Shown piece by piece: positions 10,026 through 63,419 of a stretch of DNA of 64,000 bases. Location of the stretch: assembly GCA_903813345.2 (NCBI GenBank), contig CAIIXF020000012.1, positions 434,001 to 498,000 on the forward strand. The letters run 5' to 3'. Under the pieces are notes generated by a model. It was not told where the DNA came from and did no database searches. It was given only the letters and a program-made list of their open reading frames with translations. The position numbers and the translations under genes were made by a program. This DNA is from Owenia fusiformis (lineage: Eukaryota; Annelida; Polychaeta; Sabellida; Oweniidae). Every line of letters starts with the position of its first letter. The first letter of the stretch is position 1.

Positions 10026-10388
10026 TACTGGTCAAACTTTTGTACAGGGGGTGCCGCTGAGACTCAAAATATCTACCCACATCTAGGGATTTCTTTCTCT
10101 AAAATGGACCCACATCTAAGGTTTTTCTTTCAAAAATAGACCCACTTCAAGGTAATTTAAAAAAAACAAGACCCACTTTCGGCGATTTTTTTCAAAAACA
10201 GTACCCAGTTTTGGGATTTTTTCAAAAAGTAGACCCAGTTCTAGGGATTTTTTCATCAAAATGGGACCCATATCTAGGGGTTTTCCTTCAAAATGGGACC
10301 CACATCTAGGGATTTTTCGGTGAAAAAGTGACCCACTTTAGCGGCACGTCCCCATATAGCCAATAAATGGGAGTACCCCCCGAGCTTA
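9991..10388. mobile_element. Small inverted-repeat element with a 29-G run and internal tandem repeats
   Basis: The left end (GAAGCC, 29 consecutive G at 9997-10025, GTACT, ..., GGGGGTGCCGCT) is mirrored at the right end (AGCGGCACGTCCCC ... GGGAGTACCCCCCGAGCTT). Between them are about eight degenerate copies of a unit containing GACCCACATCTAGGGATTT followed by a T-rich stretch. No protein is encoded. The G-run length may be unreliable in an assembly. Confidence 0.65.
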
Positions 10389-11231: not shown

Positions 11232-11312
11232 ATGGCACCGGAAGTGATAATAAAAGATGGAAAGCCACATTTAACGGATTCTGAAGCGCCCCTTGCAGAA
11301 ACAGATGCTCAG
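11232..11312 (+). CDS. SLC6A4: SLC6A4-like exon 1: start codon and N-terminal tail
   Basis: The ATG at 11232 has a G at +4 and an A at -3 (ACAATGG). It encodes 27 residues, [13 protein letters not shown]... to ...ETDAQ, and ends in phase 0 at CAG|GTAAAT. The next coding exon starts in phase 0, giving ...[13 protein letters not shown], which fits the HQ-GERETW region just before TM1 of human SERT. No homology identifies the first 20 residues; assignment rests on phase, position and the donor. The last bases plus the donor resemble the 36-bp unit that fills the following intron. Confidence 0.6.
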
Positions 11313-14300
11313 GTAAATGAAGTTATCTATGTTTATGCTAAAACAAAGGTAAATGAAGTCACCTATGCTGATGCTAAAACAAAGGTAGATGAAGTTACCT
11401 ATGTTGATGTTAAAACACAGGTAAATGAAGTTACCTATGTTGATGTTAAAACACAGGTAGATAAAGTTACCTATGTTGATGTTAAAACACAAGTAGGTGA
11501 AGTTACCTATGTTGATGTTAAAACACAGGTAAATGAAGTTACCTATGTTGATGTTAAAACACAAGTAGATGAAGTTACCTATGTTGATGTTAAAACACAG
11601 GTAAATGAAGTTACCTATGTTGATGTTAAAACACAAGTAAATGAAGTTACCTATGTTGATGTTAAAACACACGTAGATGAAGTCACCTATGTTGATGTTA
11701 AAACACAGGTAAATGAAGTTACCTATGTTGATGTTAAAACACAGGTAGATGAAGTTACCTATGTTGATGTTAAAACACAGGTATATGAAGTTACCTATGT
11801 TGATGTTAAAACACAGGTATATGAAGTTACCAATGTTTATGCTAAAACACAGGTAAATGAAGTTACCTATGTTAAAGTTAAAACACAGGTAAATGAAGTA
11901 ATCTATGTTGATGTTAAAACACAGGTATATGAAGTTACCTATGTTGATGTTAAAACACAGGTAAATGAAGTTACCTATGTTGATGTTAAAACACACGTAG
12001 ATGAAGTCACCTATGTTGATGTTAAAACACAGGTAAATGAAGTTACCTATGTTGATGTTAAAACACAGGTAGATGAAGTTACCTATGTTGATGTTAAAAC
12101 ACAGGTATATGAAGTTACCTATGTTGATGTTAAAACACAGGTATATGAAGTTACCTATGTTTATGCTAAAACACAGGTAAATGAAGTTACCTATGTTGAA
12201 GTTAAAACACAGGTAAATGAAGTTACCTATGTTGATGTTAAAACACAGGTAAATGAAGTTACCTATGTTGATGCTGAAACACAGGTAGATGAAGTTACCT
12301 ATGTTGATGGTAAAACACAGGTAAATGAAGTTACCTATGTTGATGCTGAAACACAGGTTAATGAAGTTACCTATGTTGATGTTAAAACACAGGTAAATGA
12401 AGTCACCTATGCTGATGCTAAAACACAGGTGAATGAAGTTATCTATGTTGATGTTAAAACACAAGTAGATGAAGTTACCTATGCTGATGCTGAAACACAG
12501 GTAGATGAAGTTACCTATGTTGATGGTAAAACACAGGTAAATGAAGTTACCTATGTTGATGCTGAAACACAGGTAAATGAAGTTACCTATGTTGATGGTA
12601 AAACACAAGTAGATGAAGTTACCTATGCTGATGTTAAAACACAGGTAAATGAAGTTACCTATGTTGATGTTAAAACACAGGTAAATGAAGTTACCTATGT
12701 TGATGTTAAAACACAAGTAAATGAAGTTACCTATGTTGATGTTAAAACACAGGTAAATGAAGTTACCTATGTTTATGCTAAAACACAGGTAAATGAAGTT
12801 ACCTATGTTGATGTTAAAACACAGGTAAATGAAGTTACCTATGTTTATGCTAAAACACAGGTAAATGAAGTTACCTATGTTGATGTTAAAACACAGGTAA
12901 ATGAAGTTACCTATGTTGATGTTAAAACACAGGTAAATGAAGTTACCTATGTTGATGTTAAAACACAGGTAAATGAAGTTACCTATGTTGATGTTAAAAC
13001 ACAGGTAAATGAAGTTACCTATGTAGATGTTAAAACACAGGTAAATGAAGTTACCTATGTTGATGTTAAAACACAGGTAAATGAAGTTACCTATGTTGAT
13101 GTTAAAACACAGGTAAATGAAGTTACCTATGTTTATGTTAAAACACAGGTATATGAAGTTACCTATGTTTATGCTAAAACACAGGTAAATGAAGGTACCT
13201 ATGTTGATGTTAAAACACAGGTAAATGAAGTTACCTATGTTGATGTTAAAACACAGGTAAATGAAGTTACCTATGTTGATGTTAAAACACAGGTAAATGA
13301 AGTTACCTATGTTGATGTTAAAACACAGGTAAATGAAGTTACCTATGTTGATGTTAAAACACAGGTAGATGAAGTTACCTATGTTGATGTTTAAACACAG
13401 GTAAATGATCGTAATCTATGTTTATGCTAAAGCACAGGTAAATGAAGTCACCTATGCTGATGCTAAAACACAGGTAAATGAAGTTACCTATGTTGATGTT
13501 AAAACACGGGTAAATGAAGTTACCTATGTTGATGCTAAAACACAGGTAAATGAAGTTACCTATGTTGATGCTGAAACACAGGTAGATGAAGTTACCTATG
13601 TTGATGGTAAAACACAGGTAAATGAAGTTACCTATGTTGATGCTGAAACACAGGTAAATGAAGTTACCTATGTTGATGTTAAAACACAAGTAGATGAAGT
13701 TACCTATGTTGATGGTAAAACACAAGTAGATGAAGTAGTCTATGTTGATGTTAAAACACAGGTAAATGATCGTAATCTATGTTTATGCTAAAGCACAGGT
13801 AAATGAAGTTACCTATGTTGATGGTAAAACACAAGTAGATGAAGTTACCTATGCTGATGCTGAAACACAGGTAAATGAAGTTACCTATGTTGATGGTAAA
13901 ACACAAGTAGATGAAGTTACTTATGCTGCTGCTGAAACACAGGTTAATGAAGTTACCTATGTTGATGGTAAAACACAGGTAAATGAAGTTACCTATGTTG
14001 ATGTTAAAACACAGGTAAATGAAGTTACCTATGTTGATGTTAAAACACAGATAAATGAAGTTACCTATGTTGATGTTAAAACACAGGTAGATGAAGTTAC
14101 CTATGTTGATGTTAAAACACATGTAAATGATCGTAATCTATGTTTATGCTAAAGCACAGGTAAATGAAGTTACCTATGTTGATGTTAAAACACAAGTAGA
14201 TGAAGTTACCTATGTTGATGTTAAAACACAAGTAGATGAAGTTACCTATGTTGAAGTTAAAACACAGGTTAATGAAGTTACCTATGTTGATGTTAAAACA

Positions 14301-17300
14301 CAGGTATATGAAGTTACCTATGTTGATGTTAAAACACAAGTAGATGAAGTTACCTATGTTGATGTTAAAACACAGGTAAATGAAGTTACCTATGTTGATG
14401 TTAAAACACAGGTAAATGAAGTTACCTATGTTGATGTTAAAACACAAGTAGATGAAGTTACCTATGTTGATGTTAAAACACAAGTAGATGAAGTTACCTA
14501 TGTTGATGTTAAAACACAGGTAAATGAAGTTACCTATGTTGATGTTAAAACACAGGTAAATGAAGTTACCTATGTTGATGTTAAAACACAAGTAGATAAA
14601 GTTACCTATGCTGATGCTGAAACACAGGTAAATGATCGTAATATATGTTTATGCTAAAACAAAGGTAAATGAAGTTACCTATGTTGATGTTAAAACACAG
14701 GTAAATGAAGTTACCTATGTTGAAGTTAAGACACAGGTAAATGAAGTTACCTATGTTGATGTTAAAACACACGTTAATGAAGTTACCTATGTTGATGCTA
14801 AAACACAGGTAAATGAAGTAATCTATGTTGATGTTAAAACACAGGTAAATGAAGTCACCTATGCTGATACTGGAACACAGGTAGATGAAGTTACCTATGT
14901 TGATGTTAAAACACAGGTAGATGAAGTTACCTAAGTTGATGTTTAAACACAGGTAAATGAAGTTACCTATGTTGATGTTAAAACACAGGTAAATGAAGTT
15001 ACCTATGTTGATGTTAAAACACAGGTAAATGAAGTTACCTATGTTGATGTTAAAACACAGGTAGATAAAGTTACCTATGTTGATGTTAAAACACAAGTAG
15101 ATGAAGTTACCTATGTTGATGTTAAAACACAAGTTGATGAAGTTACCTATGTTGATGTTAAAACACAGGTAGATGAAGTTATCTATGATGATGTTAAAAC
15201 ACAGGTAAATGAAGTTACCTATGTTGATGTTAAAACACAGGTAGATAAAGTTACCTATGTTGATGTTAAAACACAAGTAGATGAAGTTACCTATGTTGAT
15301 GTTAAAACACATGTAGATGAAGTTACCTATGTTGATGCTAAAACACAGGTAGATGAAGTTACCTATGTTGATGTTAAAACACAGATAGATGAAGTTACCT
15401 ATGTTGATGTTAAAACACAGGTAGATGAAGTTACCTATGTTGATGGTAAAACACAAGTAGATGAAGTAGTCTATGTTGATGTTAAAACACAGGTATATGA
15501 AGTAGTCTATGTTGATGTTAAAACACAAGTAGATGAAGTTACCTATGTTGATGTTAAAACACAAGTAGATGAAGTTACCTATGTTGATGGTAAAATACAA
15601 GTAGATGAAGTAGTCTATGTTGATGTTAAAACACAAGTAGATGAAGTTACCTATGTTGATGTTAAAACACAAGTAGATGAAGTTACCTATGTTGATGCTA
15701 AAGCACAGGTAGATGAAGTTACCTATGTTGATGTTAAAACACAGGTAGATGAAGTTACCTATGTTGATGTTAAAACACAAGTAGATGAAGTTACCTATGC
15801 TGATGCTGAATCACAGGTAGATGGAGCTACCTATGTTGATGTTAAAACACAGGTAGATGAAGTTACCTATGTTGATGTTAAAACACAGGTAGATAAAGTT
15901 ACCTATGTTGATGTTAAAACACAAGTAGATGAAGTTACCTATGTTGATGCTAAAACACAGGTAGATGAAGTTACCCATGTTGATGTTAAAACACAGGTAG
16001 ATGAAGGTACCTATGTTGATGTTAAAACACAGGTATATGAAGTAGTCTATGTTGATGTTAAAACACAAGTAGATGAAGTTACCTATGTTGATGTTAAAAC
16101 ACAAGTAGATGAAGTTACCTATGTTGATGGTAAAACACAAGTAGATGAAGTAGTCTCTGTTGATGTTAAAACACAAGTAGATGAAGTTACCTATGTTGAT
16201 GTTAAAACACAGGTAGATGAAGTTACCTATGTTGATGTTAAAACACAAGTAGATGAAGTTACCTATGTTGATGTTAAAACACAAGTAGATGAAGTTACCT
16301 ATATTGATGTTAAAACACAGGTATATGAAGTTACCTATGTTTATGCTAAAACAAAGGTAAATGAAGTTACCTATGTTGATGTTAAAACACAGGTAAATGA
16401 AGTTACCTATGTTGAAGTTAAAACACAGGTAAATGAAGTTACCTATGTTGATGTTAAAACACAGGTAGATGAAGTTACCTATGTTGAAGTTAAAACACAG
16501 GTAGATGAAGTTATCTATGTTGATGTTAAAACACAGGTAAATTATGTTACCTATGCTGATCCTAAAACACAGGTAGATGAAGTTATCTGTGTTGATAGAT
16601 ACTGCCAAGTTCCTTTCCCGACATTTTTTTAAAATCAGTATATTTTTGTATTTTCGTTTCGCTACTCTTGAACGCTACTACCTCCTTCCCAAATAAATAT
16701 ATTGTTCGAAAGGGCTTATCTATGCATTTTAGAATTCAACAGTCGTAAGATCAATTCTAGAACATTTGAAGGGAATTAGGTTACAACAGTATTAATTTAG
16801 ACGAAAGGAATGAGGTAAACAAGCGAATTATCTTCATGTCGGGGCTACTAATATGTCAAGGTTTGTCTAGAAACTGTTTAATCTATTTTTCAGTTGAAAT
16901 GACTTCAAAATGAAAAGGTTATAAGTAACTCTATATGTAAGAATAGGTACAGTGCTATTACAGAATTTTCCCCCCCGAGGGCTTATGATATGGGTTCACT
17001 TAGCCAAACCACAATATTTGCTCATCCACAGGAGATCAGTCCTGAAAATGATTGAGGGTTACGTATAACCGGACAACATGTTACCAGTTACAATTACTTA
17101 AACTAAAAGGGGGTAAACAGAGAGATCGGGTGATGGGGTACTGACAGATAGTTTTATAGAGTGATACGAAGTGATCGATTGGGCGCATAGCTTAGGATGA
17201 GTCTGTTGTAAATATTACAGGAAGAAGAGAGAGAAACATGGAGCAAGAAACTCGACTTCCTTCTCTCCGTCATCGGATTCGCTGTGGACCTTGGGAACGT

Positions 17301-20300
17301 CTGGCGGTTTCCCTATATCTGCTACAAGAACGGCGGAGGTTGGTTTCACTTTCTTAGTCATCTTAATAATTGAATGGCCACCGTTGTCTTCAGATAGGGG
17401 CATTCCCTTAACGTATTGTGTGAGGTTGATGTATGTTGTATTTTCCAGGGGCGTTCCTCATTCCGTACCTCGTAATGCTGATTTTTGGAGGCCTTCCATT
17501 GTTCTACCTTGAGTTGGCAATGGGGCAATTCCAGAGAACTGGCTGCATCACCGTATGGACAAGAATATGCCCAATGTTTAAAGGTAATTCAAAGGGAATT
17601 CCAAAAGTAATTTACCAGCTATATGTGTTTATATCAGAATATATTCTAGGTAATTTTCAATGGAAAATGTGTGCTACATCTACGCTAACTGCAAACTACA
17701 AATAGCTGTCTGGGTGTTTAATGATGCATATAATACTCTATATTTGTGTATATGTATCCGACCACTACAGAGCATCAGCACATTTTTACGTAGAGTGATC
17801 ACACGGTAAAATTGTCTCATCAACTTTCATCCGACTTAATCCAAGTTAAACGAAAACAAGATTTGCGGCGACGTTTGAATTTATCGCCGAAATCACACCG
17901 ATGAATAATAACAGATTGATCTAGAATTTATGTCTTTATGATAGCATAAATACTGAATATTAGATTCTTTGTCATATTTCCTACGTTACTGTCTATTTCG
18001 ATGATTGTCTTATTGACGTTGGTAGAAATGGATCGAAATAACTATTGCAATGACCGATGTTTAATATCCAAATGATAAAAGTTGTAGGAAATAATTTTTA
18101 AGAACCTAAAACTAATCTTAAAAAATATCATTTATTTCTTTAAATTATTTTGATTAGCTAATATGCCAATATCAGTGTAAAATTGTTGTTTTGAATAACA
18201 TTCTGATATTTTTGATTTTTCAAATAGACCCCAGGTGTCATTTCACATTTGTTTCCCAAAGCCCTAAAGATTCAATTGTAAAATTGATTTCTCCGAAGAT
18301 TTATTGGAATCCATGCATTTTCAAAAACGTTATATTGAAATAAAAATATGGACGTTTTGCCCACCCTGTACATATATGTTTTGTCTCACTATAGGTATAG
18401 GGTACGGCATCTGTATATGTGCTTTCTACGTGGCAATCTATTACAACACTATCATCGCTTGGGCCGTCTTTTATCTGGGGTCTTGCTTTCAAGCACAGGT
18501 AATACTACATCATCCATTGAATTCATATTCGCTATATGGACTAAACGACAGATCACAAAAGCTTCGCCGGCGTACCTGATCTATTCTCCATAATTGAAAT
18601 CTTATGTAACAAAACAGTAATTATAACTTGTCTGAAATCACAACCAATGTTACAGTATTACTATTTAGTACTTTGTTCATTAATTGAAATCGTTAACTAA
18701 ACAATAGGTTCCCTGGGCGACGTGCAATAACGAGTGGAACACTGAAAACTGCACCTCCCTAGCATTCCCTGATGAAAACTCAACTGTTCACAGTAACTTC
18801 TCTGAATCATCAGCAGAAGAATTTTTCAGGTAAAAATAACGGAATATTTCAACTTGAATATGGTCACGACCTGAAACGTACGGCGTACGGTGTCTGGTAA
18901 AATTCAAACAATGTGTATGCGTTTCAGGCGGAGGGTACTTCAAATAAATTTGTCTACTGGTATAAATGACATAGGCGGCATACGGTGGCCTATAATGTTA
19001 TGTTTGATGGCAGTATTTCTGGTAGTCTACTTCGCTCTATGGAAAGGAATCAAAAGTGTCGGAAAAGTAAGTCGGACTATGAATAAGAACAAGTAAGTTT
19101 TGCATCATTTCCCAACATACCATATGTAGCCATGTTTATACTATTCTATTATGGTGACATAACACCAAAAGGTAGCTCGGCAGTTTGGGTTACTATCTAG
19201 TATAGCTACTAGTCCTGTTAATACTATCCTCTATTTGTGACGTGGATAGTTTGGATGACCACTTCTTCGTATCATTCTCTCTTCATGACTTAAGCAGTTT
19301 GAGTGACCGATACTTTGCCATATATACAGGGTGTCTGGAAAGGATGGGACCCCCTAGCAGACATATACCAATGTCTCCATAGTATATTCCATATATTATT
19401 TTAAAGGTTATCCAAAGATACATTGATACAAGTATCATGGTTCAACTTACTAAATGGGAAAAAGTTACTGGTACAATGTATTTCAAAACTTAAGTGATTT
19501 GGCTAAAATTCAAATTCAGATCAGTATCCTGTTAACAGCTCTGACCTGAATGTGAACGGAAATATGCTAGGTAGAATGGATATTGAGTTGGAAAAGGGAC
19601 GGCGAGGGCAGATATATCGGACCCTCCCTCTCTGCGATTTTAATATTGTCGTAAGCCTTTATCAATTACCTCTTACCGTTTTTGAAAAAAGTAGGACCTA
19701 GGGGGTGCACACTTTTATATTTTGTGATAAATTGTCAATGTTCTTTCACAATAAATCTTTTGGTGACAAAAACAATTCGCTGACTTAATGAATAATCTAT
19801 TATCTTTCAAATTAAGCTAAAATCATGGTAAAAGGTTTTATAGAACTAAAGTTTTACACTTTCAAAGATAGCACGCATTGAAATCCAATTGAAACCAATG
19901 TAACATGAAATTTAAAAGTCAGTAATTCAACTTGTTTTTGTCTTCATCATTCATATTTCAAGATGTACAACAAATGCCAATCAGTAATTTAGTATGCAGT
20001 TGTATGAATGTATGACTTCGTATTGTTCCTTGATTTATACCCATAAAAGTGTCTTATATCTGTGGCTCACGCAAAAGAATTTGCAAAAAGGACTCTTGAA
20101 AAATCGAGAGGGGGGGGGGGGGGTCGGATTGACATTAAGGTTAATGTCATATCTGAAAAGAATGGCTGCTGTTAACATGGCCTAGGGCGACACACCGACT
20201 ATTAATCTGGTGTAAAGTTGAATTTTAATTTTGGCCAAACACCAAATTTGAAATGCCTGTAACTTTTCCCATTTAAGAGTTGATGTTAACCAATGTAATT

Positions 20301-23300
20301 CTGGATTAACTTTAAAATGATATATGCCATACTATGTAGACATTTGAATATGTCTGCCTGGGGGGGGGGGGGGGGGGTCCATACTTTCTGGATCCTGTAG
20401 TCATGTTCATACTATTCGTAGGCAGTTTGGGTGACCGCTACGTTACCATATATAGTCTTGTTCATAGTATTCTCTTTGTGACGTAGGCAGTTTGGGTGAC
20501 CGCTACGTTACCATATATAGTCTTGTTCATAGTATTCTCTTTGTGACGTAGGCAGTTTGGGTGACCGCTACTTTACCATATATAGTCCTGTTTATACTCC
20601 TAATCCGGGGAGTTACCCTGCCTGGATCTGCTGATGGCATCCTCTACTATATCACTCCGCAGTGGGATAAACTCCAAAATAGACAGGTAATGATTTTCAC
20701 TCATTAGAACCTCTTTATAAATCAAATAGCACTTTTCCGTAACGTGAACCTAACCTAATAACTAACTCTCTCACAACAGTGTGAATCTGCTTATATTGTA
20801 ACATTGGATTATATGACAATTGTAAAACATTTCTATCACATGGAAGGTCTGGACGGCTGCAGCTTCACAAATCTTTTTCTCCCTGGGCCCTGGTTTCGGC
20901 GTACTTCTAGCACTCTCTAGTTACAATAAGTTTCACAATAACTGCTACAGGTATAGCCATTTTGTATGTTGTGTGTTCATATAATATTATATGCACAGAG
21001 AATATGCAAGGGTTACATCAAGAACAAAGTATACATTTATTATTGTAATGTTAACACAAGCAGTGACTCAGTCAAATGTAAAATTCAATGAAAGACGAGA
21101 TGAGATGAATCATCCCGATTGAATATTTGTTGATCCAATTTTTATGTTTTCGTTTTCAGGGATGCCCTTATAACAAGCAGCATAAATTGCCTTACCAGCT
21201 TCCTTGCAGGGTTTGTTGTATTTTCTGTACTTGGATACATGGCTTTCAAACAGGGCAAAGACATCGAGAAAGTGGCAGAGCCTGGTTATTATTATTATTA
21301 TATTTATTGCCCCTCCAATCATGGAGATAATATATCATTACAGTATATAATAAATGTAATAAAAATAAAGATTTATAAAAATACAAAGACAAGTGGAAAG
21401 CATTGATACAGCAGAACCCTCCTGGTTAGCCCATGTTCTCCCCTGGGGGTCCCACTGCACCACTGTGCGAACCATTACGATTTCAAAATGAGAAGGAAAT
21501 TATATACAAAAGCAGTTGTCTAGGACATCACCAGGAGTGCCAATCACGCCTCTTTGTTGACATCCTGATTGGTGCTTCGTGTTACAGTATCACTCCATCC
21601 TTAGAATGTACATATTTTGCACAGCTGTTGAGATGCATTTAAGATCTTCGTTTGTTAGAGTCTCATCTCCTCCAAATATGCACCGTAGCTTCAGTATGTT
21701 AGTCATGTGTCTCCCATTGGGTATCCCATGTAATATATTTGTTATATTTGTTCTTAATGAGCAGTATCTGGGGCATTCCAAGATGAAGTGCTCCAGAGTT
21801 TCAATGCGTTGCATGTCACACATTCCACATATGCGATCATACACCGGAATATTTTCCCATTCACCGGTAATAGCTCGGAGTTTTCCTTGACCCGTGAGCA
21901 GTCGTACCATCAGGGTGCATCTCTTAATGTATCCACAGTCCTGCCTAGCTATTTCCCACCAGGCAATCGGTTTTGTACCAGTGACTACAGTTCGGTATAA
22001 TGTTAATTTATCATATGTAATAAGTTCTCTTCTCCACATGTTGCATTCAAAAGTCCTTACTATATTCCTAATATATCGTTTCCAGGTAGATTTTGGGGGA
22101 ACTTCACCACTGTCCATCATTTCATATATCACGTTTGATATGCCAAACCGTGATGCGAGTGTCATTATGTCACCAATAGGTGACATTTTGTGTAGCGGGT
22201 TACTGTCATATCTGAACTTCGTGATACGCTTTATTGCTATGGTACGGAAGATCGAACCTGATACCTGAGATAGAAGTTGTAGCAGGAACATCATTTTAGC
22301 CACTACTATAGTCGCCGTCATAGTATGCCAGCCTAGTTGGGGTAGGACAGCTGGGTCAGATGTGCTTACTGGCAGGCCTTGTAGTTGTTTGCATATACTT
22401 CTATGTCCCTGCTCGAGCATCTTATAATCGGTTTCACTGAGGGGGACAAGTTCCATTCCATACGTCATAGAAGGCATACTGACAGACCAATATAACTTAG
22501 ACGCAGTGAGGGGGTTGGTTGGGTTCTGGGTGTGTGTTGTTGTCCCAACATATGCATTCATTGCTCTCTTTCCTTTTGATAGTGCAGACTCTATCAGTTC
22601 TCTATTACTGTTGTAGTTCGACATTGGAAGGCCGACATGTTGTGTTGTTTGGACTACATCTATTGTACGACCTCCAAGTTGTAAGTCTATTCCTGCCTGT
22701 TGAGTGGCACGACTATTACTAAATATGATGGCCTTACATTTGTCCGGATGATAATTGAAGCGCCATTTAATGCTATACTGATGCATCATGTTTAAGATGT
22801 CTTGCATTGTCTTTTTATGATAGGCAATAATGACAGTATCATCAGCATAGGATGGACATGTACATAGTACATCACCCACAGAGCACCCTTTACCAGAGTC
22901 AATCACATCTAAGAGAAGCCTATTCATATACTCCCCGTATAGCTCCATGGAGTACAATCCTCCCTGATGAACTCCCTGAGAGATCGGGAACTTATCTGAG
23001 AGTGTGACGTCATTACCACACCTTACTGCGCACTGGTAGTCACTGTAGCATAGTCGCAACATCCTCCATATCTTCCCATGTATCCCAAGATTAAAAAGCT
23101 TGTAGAAGAGGCCATTGTGCCACACCGTGTCGAAGGCCTTGCTAATGTCCATTGTGACCATTATGACGTCATTACCACTTTCAAGGCCATTACATATGGC
23201 TTCTCTTGTCAGAAGCGATGTGTGGAGACATGACGTCATGGTCTTGTTTGCGGCCTGCATCTCTGACTTCGGCTCAATCCTATGGCACCTCCTGCTCCGC

Positions 23301-26300
23301 GTTACCATAATCTTTTCCCATAACTTCATGAAGGTCGTCATCAGCGTCAGGCCCCTATGGTTGTCCTTCTCCAAAATATCCTTGTTTCCTCCTTTAAAGA
23401 TGGGGATTAGTACACCAAGTTTAAAGCTATCTGGGATGTGCTCCAGTCTTATTATATGGTTGTACAATGCTACAAGTATATTGGCAAGTGCGTCTCCACC
23501 AAAGCGTAAATGTTCAGTGCTGATTTCATCCCACCCTGTAGCCTTGTTTCGAGAGAGGTTGTTAATTAAAGTAGTCATCTCTTTGTAGTTTATAGGATCA
23601 TTTAACGCTTCATCATCATTGTTAAAACTGTCCTGCAGCATTTCTACTATTCTTGTGTTAATCACATGTTCATGATTACTGTCAAAATTATCATTTGGCT
23701 TTATTGACATTAATGTTTTAAAATAATTCATCCATTCACTCCGGATCTCATCAGTCTGTGTTAAGATTATTCCGTCCTTATTACGTATAGAATAGCTACT
23801 ATTACTCCGATTCCTCCGTCTCTTAACAATAAACCAAAATTGCTTCAAGCTTATCTCTCCCGCTCTGTCGATTTCCTCCTGACATTCCATCTCATACTTG
23901 TACTCAGCACGACGGATTTCCCGCCTGAATTGGCGCTTTGCAGTCTTATAGCGAATCCAGTGCTCATTCTCTTTGTTCCTTGGTCTTCCATTCAACTTCC
24001 ACATCTTGAATGCTGACTTCTTGTCTGTAGATAACTGGCTCAGTGTATCAGACCAGTATGGCTTTAAGTGCTTCTTGAAAGACCTTCTAGGTATAGCATC
24101 AGCTGACACAGACTTTAAAACATCAGTCAGTTCATCAAACAGGGAATCAAGTAGTTCAGGCGTTACCTCAGACTTACTATTAATTAGCTTATCAGAGAGG
24201 GGTTTAAGAGATAGTGTCAAGGGAGCTGTATACCTCTCATAAAGCGCATTTGCATCAAGCTTATCCCATGCTAGCTTCACTGGGTTACAATTGTCAGAGG
24301 AGGGTGTGATTGGCACTAAGGTAGATGTTTCTAGTACGACCTGCAAGGGTAAATGGTCAGAATTATTTATCAATTCATCATCAATCACTTTTACAGTTTT
24401 AACTTTCTGAGCATATTCTTCTGAAACAAGGCAGTGATCAATATAAGATCTTCCTACATTTTCTCTATAATATGTATACTCTGGGCCAGAACCCTTATCT
24501 GTTAAGTCAATCACATTTAAACTACATCGAATACACATATCATTTAACAATACACCGTTACTGTTCATCTTACCAGCACCTCGACAAATAGGTACAAGAT
24601 ATATTTGTTGTATTTTCTGTACTCGGATACATATCCTTTAAACAGGGCAAAGCCATAAAGACTGTGGTAGAGTCTGGTAATATATTTGTTGTATTTTCTG
24701 AACTCGGATACATGGCCTTCTAACAGGGCAAAGGCGTCAAGACTGTGGCAGAGTCTGGTACGATATATTTGTTGTATTTTCTGTACTCGGATACATAGCC
24801 TTCAAACAGGGCAAGGCCATAAAGACTCTGGTAGAGTCTGGTAAATTATTTTTGTCGTATTTATGTTCTTTGATAAATGGCCTTCAGACCGGACAGAGCC
24901 ATAAAGACTGTGGGAGAGTCTGGTAAGTTATATTTGTTGTATTTTCTGTACTCGGATACATAGCCTCCAAACAGGGCAAGGCTATAAAGACTGTGGGAGA
25001 GTCTGGTAAGTTATATTTGTCATATTTTCTGTGCTTGGATACATAGCCTTCAGACAGGACAGAGCCATAAAGACTGTGGTAAAGTCTGGTAAGATGTATT
25101 TGTTGTATTTTATGTTCTTTGATAAATGGCCTCCAGACTGGGCAAAGTCATCAAGACTGTGGCAGATCCTGGTAAGATATATAATTTGCTGTTATACATT
25201 CCAAGTGTAGAAGGCACAGAGAGATTAACATACATATATACACAACATAAGGTTTGAAAGACTCCGATTTTCCATGACCGCGATCAAGGTGTCTTTGTTT
25301 ATGTTTTGGTAACAGAGTGACAACTTTAATGGTAAACAAGTGACCATTGTTCATATTGTCGCTGGGATATCACTTTTATTTTCTGATTGATAGGTCCTGG
25401 ACTTGTCTTCATAGCATACCCGGAAGCTCTTGCAACTTTAGATGGCGCTGTATTCTGGTCGTTCATATTCTTTACTATGCTTATTATGCTCGGGCTTGAC
25501 ACAACCGTAAGTGTTATGTTAACTTATTTTGCCAGGTACTAAAGCCATCGCAAAGTTGTATTAACTTATTTCCAATTTTGGAAAAAGCATACATTTTTAT
25601 TTGCACATAATATAGTTTTCTAGAATTGCAGCCAAAGCGACCACCGAAAGCAAAATATGGCAGGACCTATTATTATTTAATGTTTTAGTTTGGTGGGTTG
25701 GAAGCAATAATTACAGCCGTCCATGACGAGTACCCAGCTACTCTGAAGAGACGAGAACTGTTTGTTGCTGTCTTGATCGTGTTCATTTTCTTTGGTGCAC
25801 TTCCTACAACAACATATGTAAGTATAACCACCACAATATGACTTAAGATTAACACGCAGTGAGTCCCATCAAGGACTTGCCAGAAAACCTTCTCTAGTTC
25901 TCTTTCATCTCTATTGCACGGCGGTCACCAGGAAGTTTGGTACATCCGACATGTACAATTTAGTAGGGAATCTGTTCTATTACAGGGAGTCTCATCATGG
26001 ACTTTCTTGTGACTACCATGTAAGTCCCTTTCATCATTTTCCAGGGAGGTAATTATGTCATTCAGCTGCTGGACACACATGGGGCTCCAATTGCTCTTCT
26101 GTTCATCGTCTTTGTTGAGGCAGTTGCAGTTAACTGGTTCTATGGTATGTAGTTTTTTCGTTTTCTTCTGATTAAATCAAATATTCAATGAAAAGTTAAT
26201 AGGCCTAGTTCAGGTTAAAAAGATTTTTGCCGAATTTTCTTTACTTTGAATTGCATGTATTTCTCATTTTTGTTGCTTTTTAATTATCGTTGAATCTCTC

Positions 26301-32410: not shown

Positions 32411-33707
32411 CCATAGTGACGACCACTGGCAGGCATCATCCAATAGACACATTGTACGATGAGAGAACAATTTCATACTGGTGTGTGTAGCATCTATGAG
32501 TGAGATCCTTATTGAATCTCAATTCTCACATACTCCTAAGCAGGTGTCCAGAATCCGTACCTCCTTCTTCAAAAAGAAAGAAGGTATTCTGGATGATTTT
32601 AGAGCTCTGCGTACTGAGAATGCTATTCCCCATTTTAATAGGAACCTGTTGATAAGTTAACGGAGCGAACTGTTAGCATAGGTACAAAGCTGTTTCGTAC
32701 CCGTGATATGCATCATTTAAGGATAAGCTCTAGACTCAGGACATTGTGGACTGATCATTCTTCAAAAAGTTACTGTTTCAATCTTCGATCAAGTTGAGGA
32801 GACAACGCCCGAGTGGAATGAATCGGCCACAATGCATTGCCATTGAATCTTGGGCTTAAATTCTTTTCACACATTACAAAGTATTCTCTCCGAAATTACC
32901 TAAAAACGAAATCATTTAATTCAACGAATGACCTTGGGTGGATTACTAGTAATATAATACAGTGCAGATATACGAAATACTTTGTTCAGATTGGCTGGAA
33001 TCGGACACACCTTGCCTAGCTATGTGTGAATGACATTTCTTTGATATGCAATATTATAATAAGAACCTAATGAGGAACCAAAGAGACAACATGTATGTAA
33101 CAAACAAGTATATATACGTATACGTATTAGTAAGGTTATTCATTTTTTCATTTAGAGATTATTTAGAGATGTAGAAATGAATGACAGGTGGTGAGAAATT
33201 GTCCTTTTGACGCCATACGCTGATGGGACTGGGACAGAATATGAATCGAATTTGTGAAATGGGTTTCAGAATAATGACTGAACCAAATATGGTTAATTAA
33301 GACGATTGTCTTTGCAGTGTAGACGACAAGAAGGAAAACTATAATTGACATTTATAACTGTATAATATATATATGGGTATCATAATCCAATCGTCGTCTG
33401 TTAAACAACTCGCTGTAAAACTTTTGTAGAAAACTAATATGTCCGTTAGCTGGAATAGAGGTCCAACACATTTTACATGCCTGGTTTAGATTATATATGA
33501 AACAACAATACGATAACATATTCGTGCTACATTACCCAAACCAAGGACAATACATACGTGGTTATTTACGTCTTTAGTTTACAATACGACATTACTTAAG
33601 TTACGTCCTACGTAATACATTGTACAGCCGTCAAACTTTTTATCATGGAAAGTTTCTTTCCAAATTTCACTCGCACACAGACGTATGACGTCATTGATAT
33701 AACGTAG

Positions 33708-33782
33708 CCATCATTGAATATATGCTTCGACCTGCCATAATGACAGACCCCGGGCATATATAATCAATGAAAAAGACATAAT
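33708..33782. repeat. Hairpin MITE, copy 2
   Basis: CATCATTGAATATATGC and GCATATATAATCAATGA face each other around a short loop, followed by GACATAATGGCTAAATATAC. It matches the arrangement of the element at 10.39-10.51 kb, with divergence. Confidence 0.5.
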
Positions 33783-34643
33783 GGCTAAATATACAATACG
33801 TTTCCAGACGCCGTCGTTCTTGGAAAAATCTTTTCAAAATTATACAACACAAAGTGACATATTTTGATGTTGATTGCCACTTTCTCTGATATTCTTGCAT
33901 GGTTTACTGAATTTACTGAAGTATACTGTATATTGTTTTATATTTGAAATAGACAGGCGCTCGTAGACACCAATAATAAAGATAGTAAAGGGAAATACAA
34001 ATTTATAAGTGCATGCACACTGTTCCACACCTGGATGTTAGTATCATTGGCAAATATTCTTTTCTTCGTTTTTTCGTTTATATTATATTATGAATAATAA
34101 ACCAACGATTTCGGCTCATCTAAGTTGAATCTGGATTCCAAATGTTTCGCCATGCAAACTAAAAAAGTTATAATTGTAAACAGTCACCAAGTTCAGCTAG
34201 AGTCATTCTAAGTGAGGTCGTTTTCACTAAATTTCTCCAATATCTTGTGTGTTTGAACGTTTTTTCATGACTGTTTACAATTATAACTTAATTAGTTTGT
34301 GGAATTCTACACTGCATGCCCATGCCTTTCCACGTAAATGATCAAATAAAAAGAAAATACATGTAAAGCATAAAGTAGCAAATATATTGATCAGCCTTGT
34401 AGTTTAGCTGAAATCGGAGGTTTAGCGAAAACGAAAGAATTTTGGCCACCATGTTGAATGATACTAACTGCAGTTAGAGTCATCCAGCTGTGGAACAGTG
34501 ACGTGCTCATGTTTCTATGATCCAAAATACAAATTGTACTTTATCTACCATGATTTTCTAATTGGGACTGGTCACTGAATTATATCAAATTATTGCTAAA
34601 TCGTTTATTGCCAAGATTTTGGATATTTTTGTGAAGATGACGG

Positions 34644-34957
34644 CACATTGTGTCTGATAACATTGCAAGAATATGTAAAATACAACAATAACGTTAAACA
34701 GATACTATATCTAGTATATACACATTGTGTCTGATAACATTGCAAGAATATGTAAAATACAACAATAACGTTAAACAGATACTATATCTATAGTATATAC
34801 ATATTGTGTCTGATAACATTGCAAGAATATGTAAAATACAACAATAACGTTAAACAGATACTATATCTAGTATATACACATTGTGTCTGATAACATTGCA
34901 AGAATATGTAAAATACAACAATAACGTTAAACAGATACTATATCTATAGTATATGTT
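34644..34957. repeat. Four-copy tandem repeat, 77/79 bp alternating
   Basis: Units start at 34644, 34721, 34800 and 34877 with CA(C/T)ATTGTGTCTGATAACA. Units 1 and 3 end CTAGTATATAC, units 2 and 4 end CTATAGTATA, so the array is two near-identical 156-bp dimers, i.e. a recent duplication of a dimer. Confidence 0.9.
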
Positions 34958-35637
34958 TGGTAAAAGCGAAGATACTCGTTGCTCGTTTATCAATATTAGC
35001 TTTTTGATTATGTTACCATTGTCACAGAAACGTCGTCTAGTTAAGAATTCCCAAATAAATTGTCACGTTGTAGCCATTAATATAATGAAATTGTAAGAAC
35101 TAACTAAAGAATTCTTATCCTCTACGAAGTTTCTATTATGCCCCCTGCTGGGACTTATTCCGATACATGTAATTATGATATTGACCAAATACACTAATTA
35201 AAACAGGGATATTAATATTTTGTTATAATATATTTTTTGTATTTAAGTTTTCTGACGTTACAGTACACTAATATTACAGCAATATCATGGAGTACCGGTA
35301 TATATGGCATAACGTCGGAATACTATTTTCAACTTCTGTCGAACAAACAAGGCGTCGAATGTAGAGAAATAAATGCATGTAATATTATATTATTAGGAGG
35401 CCGATCAATTAAATTGGTCCATACCAGTCAGAAGAATGATCCAAAAGAATGCTGGGAGCTCAGTTCCTCTTTGCAATAAACATCTACGTTGTCATTAAAA
35501 AAAATCGTAATTAAAGAATTCATCAATCAGTAACCATGGATATAATGACGACATAGTAAAAGAAAATGGGAGTTGTTTATGAACCCAGTCAACCTTAATT
35601 ATTCGATGATATATGTTATATTGTGGAAATACCAGGT

Positions 35638-35910
35638 CTAGGGTGTAGTGTTACCATGTCTATATATTTGTCCTGTTCTTGCATTATGGATGACAATTGG
35701 TCCTTCATATTGGAAGTTGATAAATCGGCCTGAGAATATTCTTACTGAGTAACTCAACGCTTTGTCAAAACGAATATGTTTATTTTGCCTGATCCTTGGG
35801 GATTTCTCCTCTGTTTGTTTGACGTGATACAATAGTCCACTCATAAGCAACCAGACCGTGACGAACAACGTCATCTTGGAATTTGAAACTGCCGGAGAAA
35901 ATGATGGCAT
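35638..35910 (-). CDS. Possible exon with signal peptide, unidentified
   Basis: An open frame of 90 codons. From the second Met (35874) it reads MTLFVTVWLLMSGLLYHVKQ, a plausible signal peptide, followed by a basic, mostly hydrophilic stretch containing YSVRIFSGRFINFQYEGPIV and HNARTGQIYRH. The frame ends at a stop at 35638, but CATG|GTAACA just before it could act as a donor, so this may be a first exon. I do not recognise the family. Evidence is limited to composition; it may be chance. Confidence 0.25.
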   Translation of the reverse strand: MPSFSPAVSNSKMTLFVTVWLLMSGLLYHVKQTEEKSPRIRQNKHIRFDKALSYSVRIFSGRFINFQYEGPIVIHNARTGQIYRHGNTTP

Positions 35911-38267
35911 GTCGCAATTGCAGTTCGTAGAATCATATAGTTATTAAGACTAATCCTCTAGGAGACTGGGGAGACGTTGTGTTGTTGATTGGCGTAACTA
36001 CACTCTCTGGTGGCTGAGAGCATTAGCATTCTTCGGAATTGTATCAGTCGCCTTCAAAAGAAAATCATCTTCAAAAAGAAACAACAATGATTATCATGTA
36101 CAATCACAAATTAAACTTAAACTATACCAAATGAAACTATTCATATTTTGCCAAAATTAAATCTAAATCGCTGACATTTCATTAACAATAAATGAAATAA
36201 TTTTACCTCTGTGTCTTTATTCCAGTCCACGGGTTGTTTTGTCGAAAATAACTAGATGTTGTGAATATAAAGAATGGCGGAAGATAAGTTCTTTGTTAAA
36301 TGATAAAACAATCTCGTTGACAAACTCGAAGGCTATTTACACTCATAAGGACACTCATATTTTGATACTTGGTGATAATATATATTTATTTATGTCGGGT
36401 CATAGACGTTATCTATATTGTACATACAATGATACAGGGTAGCCAAAAAGGCATACCAAACAAATCATAATAACTGAGTCATTCAGCATGGGTTTGGTAC
36501 TTAGGGACCGGGTCAATACTTAACTGTCCGTAAAAACTTGATGAATTACCTTAGGGTAGGGGGTTAAAAGGCTATTCAATTAGGTGTCCGAAATTGATTT
36601 TTAGTTTCCAGGGTTTTGACTCATTTTTGGGTTTGACAGGCATGGTATGATCATTAGATATACTGAAAGGATATGTATAATGAAAATTTGAAATGTGTTG
36701 TTTGTAGCAATAGCAGATATTATATACTGTGGGTTGTACTTGAACACCGTACGCATATCAACATTTGACTCGTTTACACCACGCAGGGAATAATAAACTT
36801 CAAAATAAATATTTTATGATGTATTTTATTTCTTTGGCTGATCTACACCCTTATACAGGTATACGAAGCTACAGAGACTGGTCGGGATCATAAGCGTCCA
36901 CATTTTTATAGCTACTCATAAAATATACATTGTTTTTTTTTTCTTTTTACTAAAAAATACAAAATTTTGGGGAGCTTCCAAACATTCCATGATATCATAG
37001 TTTTCATATCCCACACTAGAAGCAAGAGATTAAGCAGTCAATTTACTTAAAATAACCATTGTACCTTTCTAGTCACGCTGTTGTACCCGACTGGTCATTA
37101 AAGTGGCTGAGTATACCAAGGGTGATTTATAATCTTAACAAAATGATGAACGTGTGTAGAATTCAAATCTAAATCTGGATAACACTTAATACTCCATTCA
37201 TTGGCAATCAAATATTAACAAACATTCATGTCACACTACAATGGACAATGTGATCCTCATATTTACAACCCCTCATTATATGATGACGTTTTCTGAGAAA
37301 CCACAATTTGAACATTAAATTCATCAAATAACATATTTCTACAAAATATAAATTAATTAATTTTATTTGTTCCGTTGACCTTAATTTAATATGTAGTATA
37401 CTACTACATAGTGTCGCCAATGTTCTTAAGTACACAATACAATATACAAGAGAGAAATGCATATTATAAGGGTTCCCTCTTAATTTAAATATTTAAAATA
37501 GTGCAAACACTTAATAAAATCCTTGCACATTAATCATTACAATTGCAATAGTAAATATAAACAGCAAAAATAGATACATATACTTCTGAGTAATATGCTA
37601 AACTTGTGCATGGATATTTCATCGTCGCCAATAAAGCTGAACATTGTTCCAGTGCAAAAATGGTCCCTAATAAAAATGGTCAATCATAAATTTAAGTAAA
37701 TAATCCTCATTTTAAATCATTGTTCAAAATTTGTTACACCAGTTGGCAAAAATATTCAGATCATGTGATTAATTTAGTTTTGGTCAACGTGTTGACTAAA
37801 TATGCCACCTTTTCATTTGAAAGTAAGTACTAAAAACACAGCAATGAAAATAGTGCTTTCTGTCTGTTGTTTAATATTAACACAAAAGAAGCACTGAACT
37901 TAATGGAATGTGTGAGTACCATATTTCAACAATATTTTGATCTTTTTTCTTCTTAAATTTGCCCATTTAAAATTATTTTCTCAAAAGCACAATTTCACTT
38001 ATTCAGTAATTAATTAATGGTACTCAGTTCTGACTTCAAAGAATAATTTTGTTAAAATGGCATATTAAAAAATCAGCAATATACATGTGCGACCTTTTAT
38101 ATAGAAATCTCCTGTCATATTTAGTAAATCTATCATGTTATTTGGACACCGTTTAGACTTTAATCTGAGGAATTGACATATTACGGTTATCATTGTTGAC
38201 ATAGTCAACTTACTGCCCACTTTTAAGTTATAATTCTGCTAAGAATGAATCAAACTATTTACTGCAA
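35911..38267. other. Intergenic region including probable CCDC92 3' UTR
   Basis: AT-rich. TACAGGGTAGCCAAAAAGGC at 36432 looks like the left end of a TA-flanked element, but no right end was found. On the minus strand an AATAAA near 36.83 kb is one of several possible polyadenylation signals for the CCDC92-like gene. No other gene is supported. Confidence 0.4.
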
Positions 38268-39010
38268 TTAATTATAGTCAAAACTTTGAGAGTTTTCTTC
38301 CCTCCATTTATGTTTTGAAGTCTGATCTACAGCTAATGTTTCAACTTCCTGGGAGTCACTGGAAGATAGTCCATTTATGGGGGAGATATTCTTTTGCTGT
38401 GTGTTTGACTTGTGACGCACAAATGTTTGACTGTACGCCTGCCTGGGGGTCAAATATTCCTCCTCTATATTCCTGATTGGGGGCAAGACTTGGGGTGAGG
38501 GACGGAGCTCAACTTTCACTTCAGGTTTTGGATGATGTAGAAATGGTGACGGATCTGGAGGGACTGGTAACTTACGCCCAGAAGACACCCTCCCTGCAGA
38601 GATATCCTGAATATCTAACCCTGCAGGAGTGGTTGAACTTTTCCGGAGACTACTTCTCCGTCTTGATGGAGCGCCATCTTTAGGCGGTGCAGGACTATGT
38701 GAGAATCGTTCTTGTTGGTCTTTGCTATGTGACTCGTTATATCTCATTTGGACAACCTTCATCTGATGTAACTGGTGAGTTATTGCTACAATATTATCTG
38801 TCTTCATCTCAAGTTCTCTGTTGAGTTTCTGAACAGTTATATCTTTCTCTTTGAGCTTATCACACAGTCTCTTCTCCTGTGCTTTAAGTTGCTGTTCTAA
38901 CATGGCAATTTTTCTATCCTTTTTCTCAATTTGTTTTTCAAGGTCAGCTTTGTTGGTATCCCTTTGTACAAGAGATTCCTCCAATGATTTTACACGTCTG
39001 ATGTAGTGGT
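38268..39010 (-). CDS. CCDC92: CCDC92-like exon 3: coiled coil and C-terminal tail
   Basis: Acceptor TTGTTTCAG. It encodes DHYIRRVKSLEESLVQRDTN, a heptad-rich helix to about residue 145 of the full protein, then a Ser/Pro-rich basic tail ending QSFDYN and a stop. The frame extends past 39010 as far as 39176 but that part lacks homology, and the acceptor fixes the boundary. Confidence 0.92.
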
Positions 39011-41572
39011 CTGAAACAAAGCAGGGGAACACATTAAAAAGGCAATTACCGTATTTGCCGTAATAAGCACCCAGGGCGCTTTTGAAATTGAAATTCCCAT
39101 TGTAACCCATTACAAAGAGTGCCCATTTATGAGAAAAGTCAAAAATCCCCGGGAATTTCATGTATTTTCTTGCCAAAAATCCCTTATTTGGGACGAAAGT
39201 GACAGCATATTTTTACAATAATGATATGTATCGTTGTTGGAGAGAATACGGTAAAGATCGCTAAAATAAAGCAAGTCTAACTGTATTGACAGTGATTGCA
39301 GAACTCCCCAGCAGAGCCCCTCGAGGTGAAGGAAGAGGTAGTTGACAAGAACACATACCTTCATTAAATTCAACCCATAACATTAGAAAGACCCAAGAGA
39401 CAAGAACACAAACCTTTATTAAATTCAACCCATAACATTAGAAAGACCCAAGAGACAAGAACACAAACCTTTATTAAATTCAACGCAAAACATAAGAAAG
39501 ACCCAAGAGACAAGAACACAAACCTTCATTAAATTCAACCCATAACATTAGAAAGACCCAAGAGACAAGAACACAAACCTTCATTAAATTCAACGCATAA
39601 CATAAGAAAGACATAAGAGACAAGAACACAAACCTTCATTAAATTCAACGCATAACATAAGAAAGACATAAGAGACAAGAACACAAACCTTCATTAAAAT
39701 CAACTCATAACATAAGAAAGACATAAAAGACAAGAACACAAACCTTCATTAAAATCAACCCATAACATTAGAAAGACCCAAGAGACAAGAACACAAACCT
39801 TCATTAAATTCAACGCATAACATAAGAAAGACATAAGAGACAAGAACACAAACCTTCATTAAAATCAACCCATAACATAAGAAAGGCATAAGAGGCAAGA
39901 ACACAAACCTTCATTAAAATCAACCCATAACATTAGAAAGACCCAAGAGACAAGAACACAAACCTTCATTAAATTCAACGCATAACATAAGAAAGACATA
40001 AGAGACAAAAACACAAACCTTCATTAAATTCAACCCATAACATAAGAAAGACATAAGAGACAAGAACACAAACCTTCATTAAAATCAACCCATAACATTA
40101 GAAAGACCCAAGAGACAAGAACACAAACCTTCATTAAATTCAACGCATAACATAAGAAAGACATAAGAGACAAAAACACAAACCTTCATTAAATTCAACC
40201 CATAACATAAGAAAGACATAAGAGACAAGAACACAAACCTTCATTAAAATCAACCCATAACATTAGAAAGACCCAAGAGACAAGAACACAAACCTTCATT
40301 AAATTCAACCCATAACATAAGAAAGACATAAGAGACAAAAACACAAACCTTCATTAAATTCAACCCATAACATAAGAAAGACATAAGAGACAAGAACACA
40401 AACCTTCATTAAAATCAACCCATAACATTAGAAAGACCCAAGAGACAAGAACACAAACCTTCATTAAATTCAACCCATAACATAAGAAAGACATAAGAGA
40501 CAAGAACACAAACCTTCATTAAATTCAACCCATAACATAAGAAAGACATAAGAGACAAGAACACAAACCTTCATTAAAATCAACCCATAACAGAAAGACC
40601 CAAGAGACAAAAACACAAACCTTCATTAAAATCAACCCATAACATTAGAAAGACCCAAGAGACAAGAACACAAACCTTCATGAAATTCAATGCATAACAT
40701 AAGAAAGACATAAGAGACAAAAACACAAACCTTCATTAAATTCAACCCATAACATAAGAAAGACATAAGAGACAAGAACACAAACCTTCATTAAAATCAA
40801 CCCATAACATTAGAAAGACCCAAGAGACAAGAACACAAACCTTCATTAAATTCAACGCATAACATAAGAAAGACATAAGAGACAAGAACACAAACCTTCA
40901 TTAAATTCAACCCATAACATAAGAAAGACATAAGAGACAAGAACACAAACCTTCATTAAATTCAACCCATAACATAAGAAAGACATAAAAGACAAGAACA
41001 CAAACCTTCATTAAATTCAACCCACAAGAAAGACCCAAGAGACAAGAACACATAGGATTCATTATATTCAAGCCATGATGTAAGAGACATGAGAGACCAT
41101 AACACATAACAACACATACCTTCATTAAACTCAGTTGAGGAAGTTGTTTGCATTGCAATCTGGAATGTGTACTCTGAAACGAAAAACATAAAATTAGCAT
41201 GTTAATGTGGAGAACAAAAATATTATTTTTTTTAGAAATCAAAGCTGAAAATCTAGATTAGTATCTACTTGTACTTTTCCTTGCAATCTGCAACTTGGCA
41301 TTTTGGTTTATATATAGTTTCAAAATGGCATGCAGTGATTTGAAAGAATCCTCTAATCTATTGTGTAATTGAATTTTTCAAAGCATTTTATTAGGATGTA
41401 AATATGAACTTTCATTATATACTTGCATACCAGAGCATTTCTTCTGAAGCTTTTGTATCTCTGCGTGCAGACCCTTTAATGTTATTGCATGATCAGACTG
41501 CATGAACAGGATAGAACTTTCCAAATTACGGATCTTTGTGTCAGCCGTTGCAACCGCCATTTTAGTTGTCAA
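38268..41572 (-). CDS. CCDC92: CCDC92-like coiled-coil protein gene (three coding exons, whole span)
   Basis: Exons 41572-41431, 41173-41120 and 39010-38268 join with matching phases to give 312 aa (human CCDC92 is 331 aa). The N-terminus, SSILFMQSDHAITLKGLHAE then IQKLQKKCS, matches the conserved CCDC92 start (NLLFLQREHASTLKGLHSEI). A long coiled coil follows (EKKDRKIAMLEQQLKAQEKR), then PAPPKDG, PDPSPFLHHPKPEV, LPPI and ETLAVDQ, all with counterparts in the human protein (PAPPKD, PDPTPFL, VIPPI, KTLAVDQ). Human CCDC92 is described as a coiled-coil interactor linked to centrosome and cilium proteins; no enzymatic role is implied. The gene is convergent with the transporter. Intron 2 is filled by a 55-bp array that includes the exon-2 donor. 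Confidence 0.9.
39345..41060 (-). repeat. 55-bp tandem array (about 31 units) containing the CCDC92 exon-2 donor
   Basis: On the minus strand each unit contains GAATTTAATGAAG|GTTTGTG followed by TTCTTGTCTCTTATGTCTTT and CTTATGTTATGGGTT. The first part matches the exon-2 end GAGTTTAATGAAG|GTATGTG. Between exon 2 and the regular array lie two diverged copies (about 41000-41100). Variants alternate (ACCCAAGAG or ACATAAGAG; AAATTCAACG or AAAATCAACCC on the plus strand), giving a higher-order pattern. Confidence 0.93.
41120..41173 (-). CDS. CCDC92: CCDC92-like exon 2
   Basis: 54 bases between acceptor GTTTCAG and donor GAAG|GTATGT. It encodes EYTFQIAMQTTSSTEFNE across split codons (phase 1 at both ends). 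It aligns with the segment after the conserved Cys in human CCDC92 (CTDLTYELTVKSSEQ). Confidence 0.85.
41431..41572 (-). CDS. CCDC92: CCDC92-like exon 1: start and conserved N-terminal helix
   Basis: Starts MTTKMAVATADTKIRNLESS; either Met (41572 or 41560) could be used, and the second, AAAATGG, has the better context. It ends in phase 1 at TCTG|GTATGC. TLKGLHAEIQKLQKKC is the family signature. Upstream, TTTATTTTCAG near 41.67 kb could bound a 5' untranslated exon. Confidence 0.88.
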
Positions 41573-46731: not shown

Positions 46732-48031
46732 TGTAACATTCCCTCAACTCATTGTGGTAGCGTGGTTAAAAGAGAGGGAGATGTTATTGGTTAAAATTAT
46801 GAGCTTTATTCTAAGTTAATTATGGAGGGTGTAAAACATCGTCTTTACAATGAGTCTTATAGGAAATAAACTTTTATGTCGAAAGAAAGATGGCGCTCTG
46901 GCAAAAATCTCTACATCTTGATTATACTTGGAATTGTCTCATGAAGGGGGGAATAATATCACCTTAAGAAATATAACACGACAAAAGTTTTAAAGAAACA
47001 TATTTACAGGTGTATATATTTTTAAGATATTAAAGATAACAATGACAACAGTACAGTAAAAATTAGTTATGAATAATCAAACTGTGTTCTGGGAGAAGTT
47101 TCTGTATATAAAGTGACTAACATGGACTAACAATGACTAGCACGAATTATAACAAGTGACTAACACGAGCTAACAAGTGACTAGCAAGTGACTAGAAAGT
47201 GACTAACAAGTGACTATCAAGTGACTAGCACGTGACTAACACGAGCTACATGGTTGGAAATTTGCCCGGAAATTTGCAATATGACTGCCGGAATTTCCAG
47301 AGACTGGGAAAGCTGGACTGTGGGGTACTTTGGGAAGGGGAAATACATCTCTCTAATAGGATACATGGTCCTGGGACTAGAGTAGATGTAAAGGGGATCC
47401 TGGGCAACTTTTGGGCCGGAGCATTATATACATTTCAAGGTAACTTTCACTGTCAAATCTCGTAACAGAATGTCATAAAACATATATCAATTTGTTGATC
47501 ATCATTTGATTAATACAAATATATATTTACCTAACACCAATAGAGTCGGAATACTGCAAAATCGATCGAAACGTAGGAGATATATCCATTGGCATCCTTA
47601 CAGTTAAAATCTAAACAGAACACAAACCAAACTTCTCAACTGAGGAAAACCTTACGCCGAATACTAACTTAACAAACAAAAGTATTTCATACCTAATACT
47701 GATATCAAAATATGATGAACATAAATAAACATGTTTAAGAAGCTGTAATTAAAGTAAATTGCTTATAATTAATGCTAATTACTGGATCAAGTCTTGGGGC
47801 TATATTCTGCACTATTTGCAGTTAAATATTAATACGCCATCACTGAAAAGTATGTATTTGGAGATTGGCATTCTTCTTGAGAGTGAATATCAGCTGAATG
47901 CATATAAACGTACAACTTATAAACGATTAAAGTTAAAATCTGATTAAATATAGAGATAAATACAGTAACAGCACACCAAATAATAAGAGAAATTATGCTA
48001 TAAGTGTATCTGAATTTGGTGGGTTGTTACA
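46732..48031 (-). repeat. LTR (3' LTR in element orientation)
   Basis: 1300 bp, TGTAACATTCCCTCA...GGTGGGTTGTTACA on the plus strand. It contains a short tandem stretch of the motif AAGTGACTA(G/A)C (about 47110-47250). The 77- and 62-codon frames inside occur in both LTRs and are not supported as genes. Confidence 0.93.
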
Positions 48032-53029: not shown

Positions 53030-53210
53030 ATCATCTAACAACGCTGTACAACGTTGTTAACAACGTTGTACAACGTCGTTTGAACAACGTTGACAAGTGT
53101 CGTTCGAGTACAGTGTTGTACAACGTTGTTTGACCAACAACGTTGTTCAACGTTGTTTGAACAGTATTGTACAACGTTGTTTCTTGAACGGTACCGTACA
53201 GCGCCGTTTT
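53030..53210. repeat. Palindromic ACAACGTTGT array, copy 1
   Basis: Repeated AACAACGTTGTACAACGTTG-type motifs. Each 10-mer ACAACGTTGT is its own reverse complement, so the array can fold on itself at many registers. A similar array lies at 63.42-63.65 kb, and both have the shared CAAAGTTGTAGC segment nearby, suggesting one repeat family. Confidence 0.85.
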
Positions 53211-63400: not shown

Positions 63401-63419
63401 TATATAAGTATAATATTGT
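60401..63419. other. Intergenic, no gene recognised
   Basis: Contains long G and C runs near 61.14 and 61.19 kb and two overlapping minus-strand frames at 61216-61705 without recognisable domains. From 62.0 to 62.3 kb the GATGATAT(T)TGG-like and ATATCATC-like words recur on both strands, suggesting a further inverted-repeat element whose ends I could not set. Confidence 0.4.

Follow-up and report, generated by a model that had tools for sequence, protein, structure and literature searches.

The window analysed here, a 64,000-nucleotide stretch of the Owenia fusiformis genome, contains two neighbouring genes in which tandem arrays lie at exon-intron boundaries. Are splice junctions hot spots for tandem duplication, or are duplications that cover a splice site simply tolerated? 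The first-pass annotation had offered both possibilities. Our analysis argues for the second, and the arrays are quite probably minisatellites of the type called mirages, which would arise by random tandem duplication and be tolerated at exon edges since one complete exon with its splice site stays.

The plus-strand gene encodes a serotonin transporter-like SLC6 protein. Using the contiguous exon copies, we obtained a 15-exon model of 593 residues with no internal stops, which matched the SNF profile with an E-value of 2.5e-226 (positions 1-523 of 524 aligned). The best solved-structure matches of exons 1-10 were serotonin transporter chains (PDB), and the exon 7 and exon 9 edges are fixed by homology and reading frame. 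On the minus strand lies a gene that matches CCDC92 over residues 8-56 (PF14916, E-value 6.6e-18). The features of both genes and examples from other loci are listed in the table. Elsewhere in the window, an open stretch of 644 codons on the plus strand (4282-6213) looks reverse transcriptase-like by eye.

Table. Exons, arrays and insertions in the window, and edge arrays or copies at other loci (TRF, Tandem Repeats Finder; L numbers denote loci, with positions in brackets)
Feature	Position	Strand	Basis or remark
Transporter exon 1, predicted coding part, donor CAG/GTAAAT	11232..11312	+	Open frame from ATG 11232, phase 0 match to exon 2; edge without homologue support
36-bp array, x146.8 (147 copies)	11310-16596	+	TRF
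Older decayed copies of exon 7 start	19181..19326	+	Alignment/pattern: one aligned, two as pattern matches
TE-like insertion (~1.07 kb) inside exon 7 array	19327..20399	+	Similar terminal stretches by eye
65-bp array, x2.8, last copy = start of authentic exon 7	20417-20596	+	TRF, alignment
Transporter exon 7	20552..20686	+	Homology
Transporter exon 9, donor CTG/GTTATT	21160..21284	+	Homology
LINE-like insertion separating exon 9 from its array	~21288-24590	-	Sequence read; approximate boundaries
83-bp array, x7.1, each unit with donor	24596-25182	+	TRF, alignment
55-bp array, x32.2	39344-41106	-	TRF
CCDC92-like exon 2, donor AAG/GTATGT (donor 41120)	41120..41173	-	Splice signal and frame
Edge arrays or copies at donors	L007 (5020), L008 (4479), L003 (6507), L021 (2851), L041 (3656)		
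Edge arrays or copies at acceptors	L038 (42-bp unit), L028 (6431)		
L036 acceptor array, 159-bp unit, x17.9, 97%	G000:C2:23266000-23270500		Start of kinesin motor exon; last copy continues into exon

Four arrays had been described as repeating an exon edge together with its splice signal. Alignment and TRF bear this out for the arrays of 65, 83 and 55 bp, but not for the 36-bp array, in which CAG alone can be exonic. At exon 7, which begins at 20552 (GTAG/GCAGTTTGG), alignment assigns about 42 bases of the 65-bp unit to the exon and 23 to the intron, the acceptor included. Older copies of the exon start sit upstream, on the far side of the TE-like insertion, and stop codons result if one or the other of two upstream copies is used for exon 7. 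At exon 9, the 83-bp unit consists of about 69 bp of the exon end and 14 bp of intron, and 78 ungapped columns match when the first array copy is aligned with the end of the exon. The exon is parted from this array by an insertion, which we take to be LINE-like. In the CCDC92-like gene, the aligned 55-bp unit holds 14 exonic bases of exon 2 and the donor.

The 36-bp array starts exactly at the predicted exon 1 donor (11312), and the exonic part of its unit is CAG at most. Exon 1 and the unit share no real similarity (local alignment score 7), so that the array abuts the exon 1 edge but, judged by sequence, is not clearly derived from it. The unit is highly regular in length, with 142 of the 147 copies being exactly 36 bp. 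A 37-bp variant copy occurs at 13398, 13759 and 14120, that is, every 361 bp within the array, pointing to a recent block duplication of ten copies.

The list of other arrays in the window was incomplete, and TRF adds those at 34644-34954, 10075-10317, 53037-53209 and 63416-63649. Two 11-bp arrays (47111-47241 and 50841-50971), which have identical TRF scores and lie 3.7 kb apart, are perhaps a local duplication. With regard to the edges, the four cases had been judged hard to put down to chance, which does not hold firmly. For a null expectation we placed one unit in a gene with its arrays and insertions collapsed; the introns are inflated by the arrays themselves, and the collapsed gene is therefore the fair null. 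Collapsed, the transporter gene measures ~6.9 kb with 28 edges and the CCDC92-like gene 1.6 kb with 4 edges, the exon bounds used for the latter being within 40 bases of those established afterwards. In the collapsed transporter gene, a randomly placed unit of 22-83 bp has a 9-36% chance of overlapping an edge. Among the gene arrays of the window, 4/7 lie at an edge compared with 1.47 expected (P=0.035, post hoc), and 3 firm cases compared with 1.12 expected are left when 8 bp are demanded on both sides of the edge (P 0.08). The four arrays at edges are thus mildly unusual. Since the window had been chosen for its edge arrays, the test was made elsewhere.

We sampled 47 loci outside the window, 35 of the SLC6/myosin families (254.5 kb) and 12 of the kinesin family, with ~295 kb tested or ~0.06% of the genome. 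Edges were predicted from profile matches and splice-signal scores. The SLC6 and myosin searches gave 107 + 92 matches, of which 138 were entered and 135 were in sampled pieces, and 249 of the 270 possible edges had a predicted signal. For kinesin, 49 of 144 matches were entered and 90 of 98 possible edges tested. The AMP-binding family was unusable for edges (14 matches, each one long stretch), and locus L036, which had been picked for its array, stands outside all counts. Because TRF misses imperfect copies, we added an alignment test, in which an edge was counted if a same-strand copy within 1.5 kb crossed it by at least 8 bp. Outside the sampled pieces, the myosin search also gave a run of 12 matches (G000:C9:37986009-37994334, minus strand) that all fall on roughly positions 18-84 of the myosin head profile, and these may represent alternative exons arrayed in a muscle myosin gene.

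Mirages are also present outside the window, at SLC6, myosin and kinesin loci. At the 35 SLC6/myosin loci, a copy crosses 9/249 edges, compared with 8.6% of intron points in the raw and 4.3% in the collapsed sequence, and with 1.3% (raw) and 0.8% (collapsed) of exon interiors. By TRF, 5/91 arrays have an edge inside (4.65 expected), while 0/91 are wholly exonic (7.6 expected). At the 12 kinesin loci, 4/90 edges are crossed, compared with an intron rate of 2.9% collapsed and 4.4% raw; 3/8 arrays are at edges (1.0 expected), one of them (L047) doubtful as the edge looks misplaced, and 1/8 is wholly exonic (1.4 expected). Here the exon interior is hardly depleted by alignment, with 2.4% compared with 2.9% for introns, both collapsed. 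Two further edge arrays are also doubtful: L021 concerns 17 bp and a weakly scored donor, and L022 counts only with the second of two equal donors.

When the 47 loci are pooled, 13/339 edges (3.8%) have a crossing copy, compared with 4.2% of intron points collapsed and 8.2% raw; the exon interior stands at 1.3% collapsed. The edge/intron ratio is 0.9, with a 95% interval of 0.5-1.5 if the background is treated as fixed. Five of the 13 edge matches, at 19.5-22, score no higher than block-shuffled queries can (280 queries, maximum 22), and we therefore recounted at higher thresholds. A stricter score leaves 8/339 edges (2.4%) compared with 3.5% for introns and 1.3% for exon interiors, and the strictest score leaves 7/339 (2.1%) compared with 3.1% and 1.1%, respectively. 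The edge duplication rate may even lie between those of intron and exon interior. Of the pooled TRF arrays, 8/99 hold an edge (5.66 expected, P 0.21) and 1/99 is wholly exonic (~9 expected). Adding the window to the pool gives 12 edge arrays compared with 7.1 expected (P 0.06), and L036 would make one more. The comparison of arrays with splice sites that the first-pass annotation had proposed, run here on sampled loci with predicted edges, yields no excess, though a modest enrichment at exon edges may exist.

How could such arrays come about? We infer a mutational step followed by splicing through the contiguous copy. Tandem duplication, by slippage or unequal exchange, would seed a repeat at a position blind to splice sites. 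Where the unit straddles an edge, the exon would remain whole, splice signal included, in the copy that adjoins its remainder, and splicing would treat all other copies as intron. With the extra copies intronic and the contiguous exon complete, the change would therefore be nearly neutral, and the array might later expand or decay as any intronic minisatellite does. Duplications wholly within an exon would alter the protein and be mostly purged. Edges at or below the collapsed intron rate and the depletion of wholly exonic arrays both support the earlier suggestion that duplications over splice sites are tolerated.

The competing proposal is that tandem duplication is genuinely favoured at splice junctions, which would act as hot spots owing, for instance, to R-loops or to breakpoints that prefer AGGT. 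It draws on the proportions of edge arrays in the window and at the kinesin loci. We consider it unlikely, because at none of the three thresholds do the pooled edges rise above the intron rate, and the pooled count of edge arrays is not significantly above its expectation. We give very little credence to the idea that selection maintains the arrays as splice-site decoys or as regulators of splicing. The GT is kept in 140/142 full-length copies of the 36-bp array, where the mean over dinucleotide positions is 128, but this high retention is also compatible with homogenisation. The authentic exon 9 donor (21284) scores -1.3 and is outscored by 7/7 array donors (1.1 to 6.6); this weakness is accounted for by the LINE-like insertion that adjoins the exon. 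In the CCDC92 array the situation is reversed, with 29/30 donors scoring 1.5 compared with 5.3 for the authentic donor. Overall, our sequence analysis found no clear sign of function in the arrays.

A separate proposal concerns the 36-bp array, which could be partly coding if dozens of in-frame donors could each serve to splice exon 1, lengthening the N-terminus by multiples of 12 residues as in the human 6-16 (IFI6) minisatellite. The latter was reportedly described by Turri in 1995 as having multiple splice donor sites, and the 36-bp array resembles it in offering many donors, here as predictions. Several features speak for this: the unit equals 12 codons, exons 1 and 2 are both phase 0, the exon 1 frame runs open through the array up to a stop at 13392 with 56 donors upstream of it, 62/139 donors match or exceed the score of the first one, and only 2/142 full-length copies bear a stop. 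However, a stop-free, homogenised 36-bp unit yields an open frame by itself, and the 37-bp copies throw the array out of frame further on. Synonymous changes are not in excess; distinct non-synonymous and synonymous changes number 16:6 where the copies are in frame and 31:6 elsewhere in the array, compared with 79:24 opportunities, and these substitutions carry no sign of coding constraint. When every change is counted, stops make up 4/258 changes compared with 5/108 opportunities, a shortage that gives a weak hint of coding constraint from copies that are non-independent. We regard the proposal as improbable. A coding array had also been considered as the main reading of the locus and was dropped, as distinct synonymous and non-synonymous changes track opportunity and stops occur in the two copies mentioned. 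Still less probable is a combined reading: that mirages burden a non-chordate genome throughout, with ~2-4% of exon edges affected, and that the dozens of in-frame donors in the 36-bp array serve as ladder-like alternatives, each further copy adding 12 residues to the N-terminus of the serotonin transporter.

Contrary to what had been stated, a named class exists for such arrays. Mirages of amphioxus are minisatellite-like tandem repeats spanning exon-intron boundaries in Adh3, the globins BflGb6 and BflGb9, and troponin C, with similar repeats in PGBD5; their units measure 10-160 bp, they occur at donors and acceptors, many copies have AG/GT signals, and the repeats are variable in length and unstable, with splicing reportedly undisturbed (PMC3087553, PMC3902484). 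The arrays in O. fusiformis are alike in that the unit spans the boundary, clearly in three arrays and by 3 bp in the 36-bp array, and in that many copies carry AG/GT signals. Both boundary types are found, with donors at transporter exon 9 and CCDC92 exon 2, an acceptor at exon 7, and further cases at L007, L008, L038 and L036. They differ in that the host is an annelid and not a cephalochordate, and that one array reaches 147 copies; the amphioxus mirages were studied for length and splicing, whereas those described here are known from one genome assembly alone. Searches of this genome gave no match to GFP, in a run whose controls likewise gave none, and no match to COX1.

Our findings suggest that mirages are not a cephalochordate peculiarity. 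They also provide a sampled background rate, according to which tandem duplications are no more frequent at edges than in introns, and less frequent in exon interiors. Models in which introns are gained through tandem duplication presuppose such edge duplications as their raw material, and they become testable, since one may ask how frequently a copy goes on to serve as a splice site. A literature search, to which subscription papers were mostly closed, did not find the name mirage used for such arrays outside amphioxus, and human boundary repeats came nearest. These are internal tandem repeats in duplicated genes, in which a minisatellite has expanded at an exon-intron boundary and can change splicing (PMC2812944). 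They were studied in recent segmental duplications, whereas the arrays studied here lie in ordinary conserved genes. There is also a likeness to tandem duplications of exonic sequence, including a potato case that crosses an intron-exon boundary. Unlike in these, no new intron is seen here, and the copies lengthen an existing one. Hence, the kind of array is already known; its breadth in an annelid may be new, as may the absence of enrichment at exon edges.
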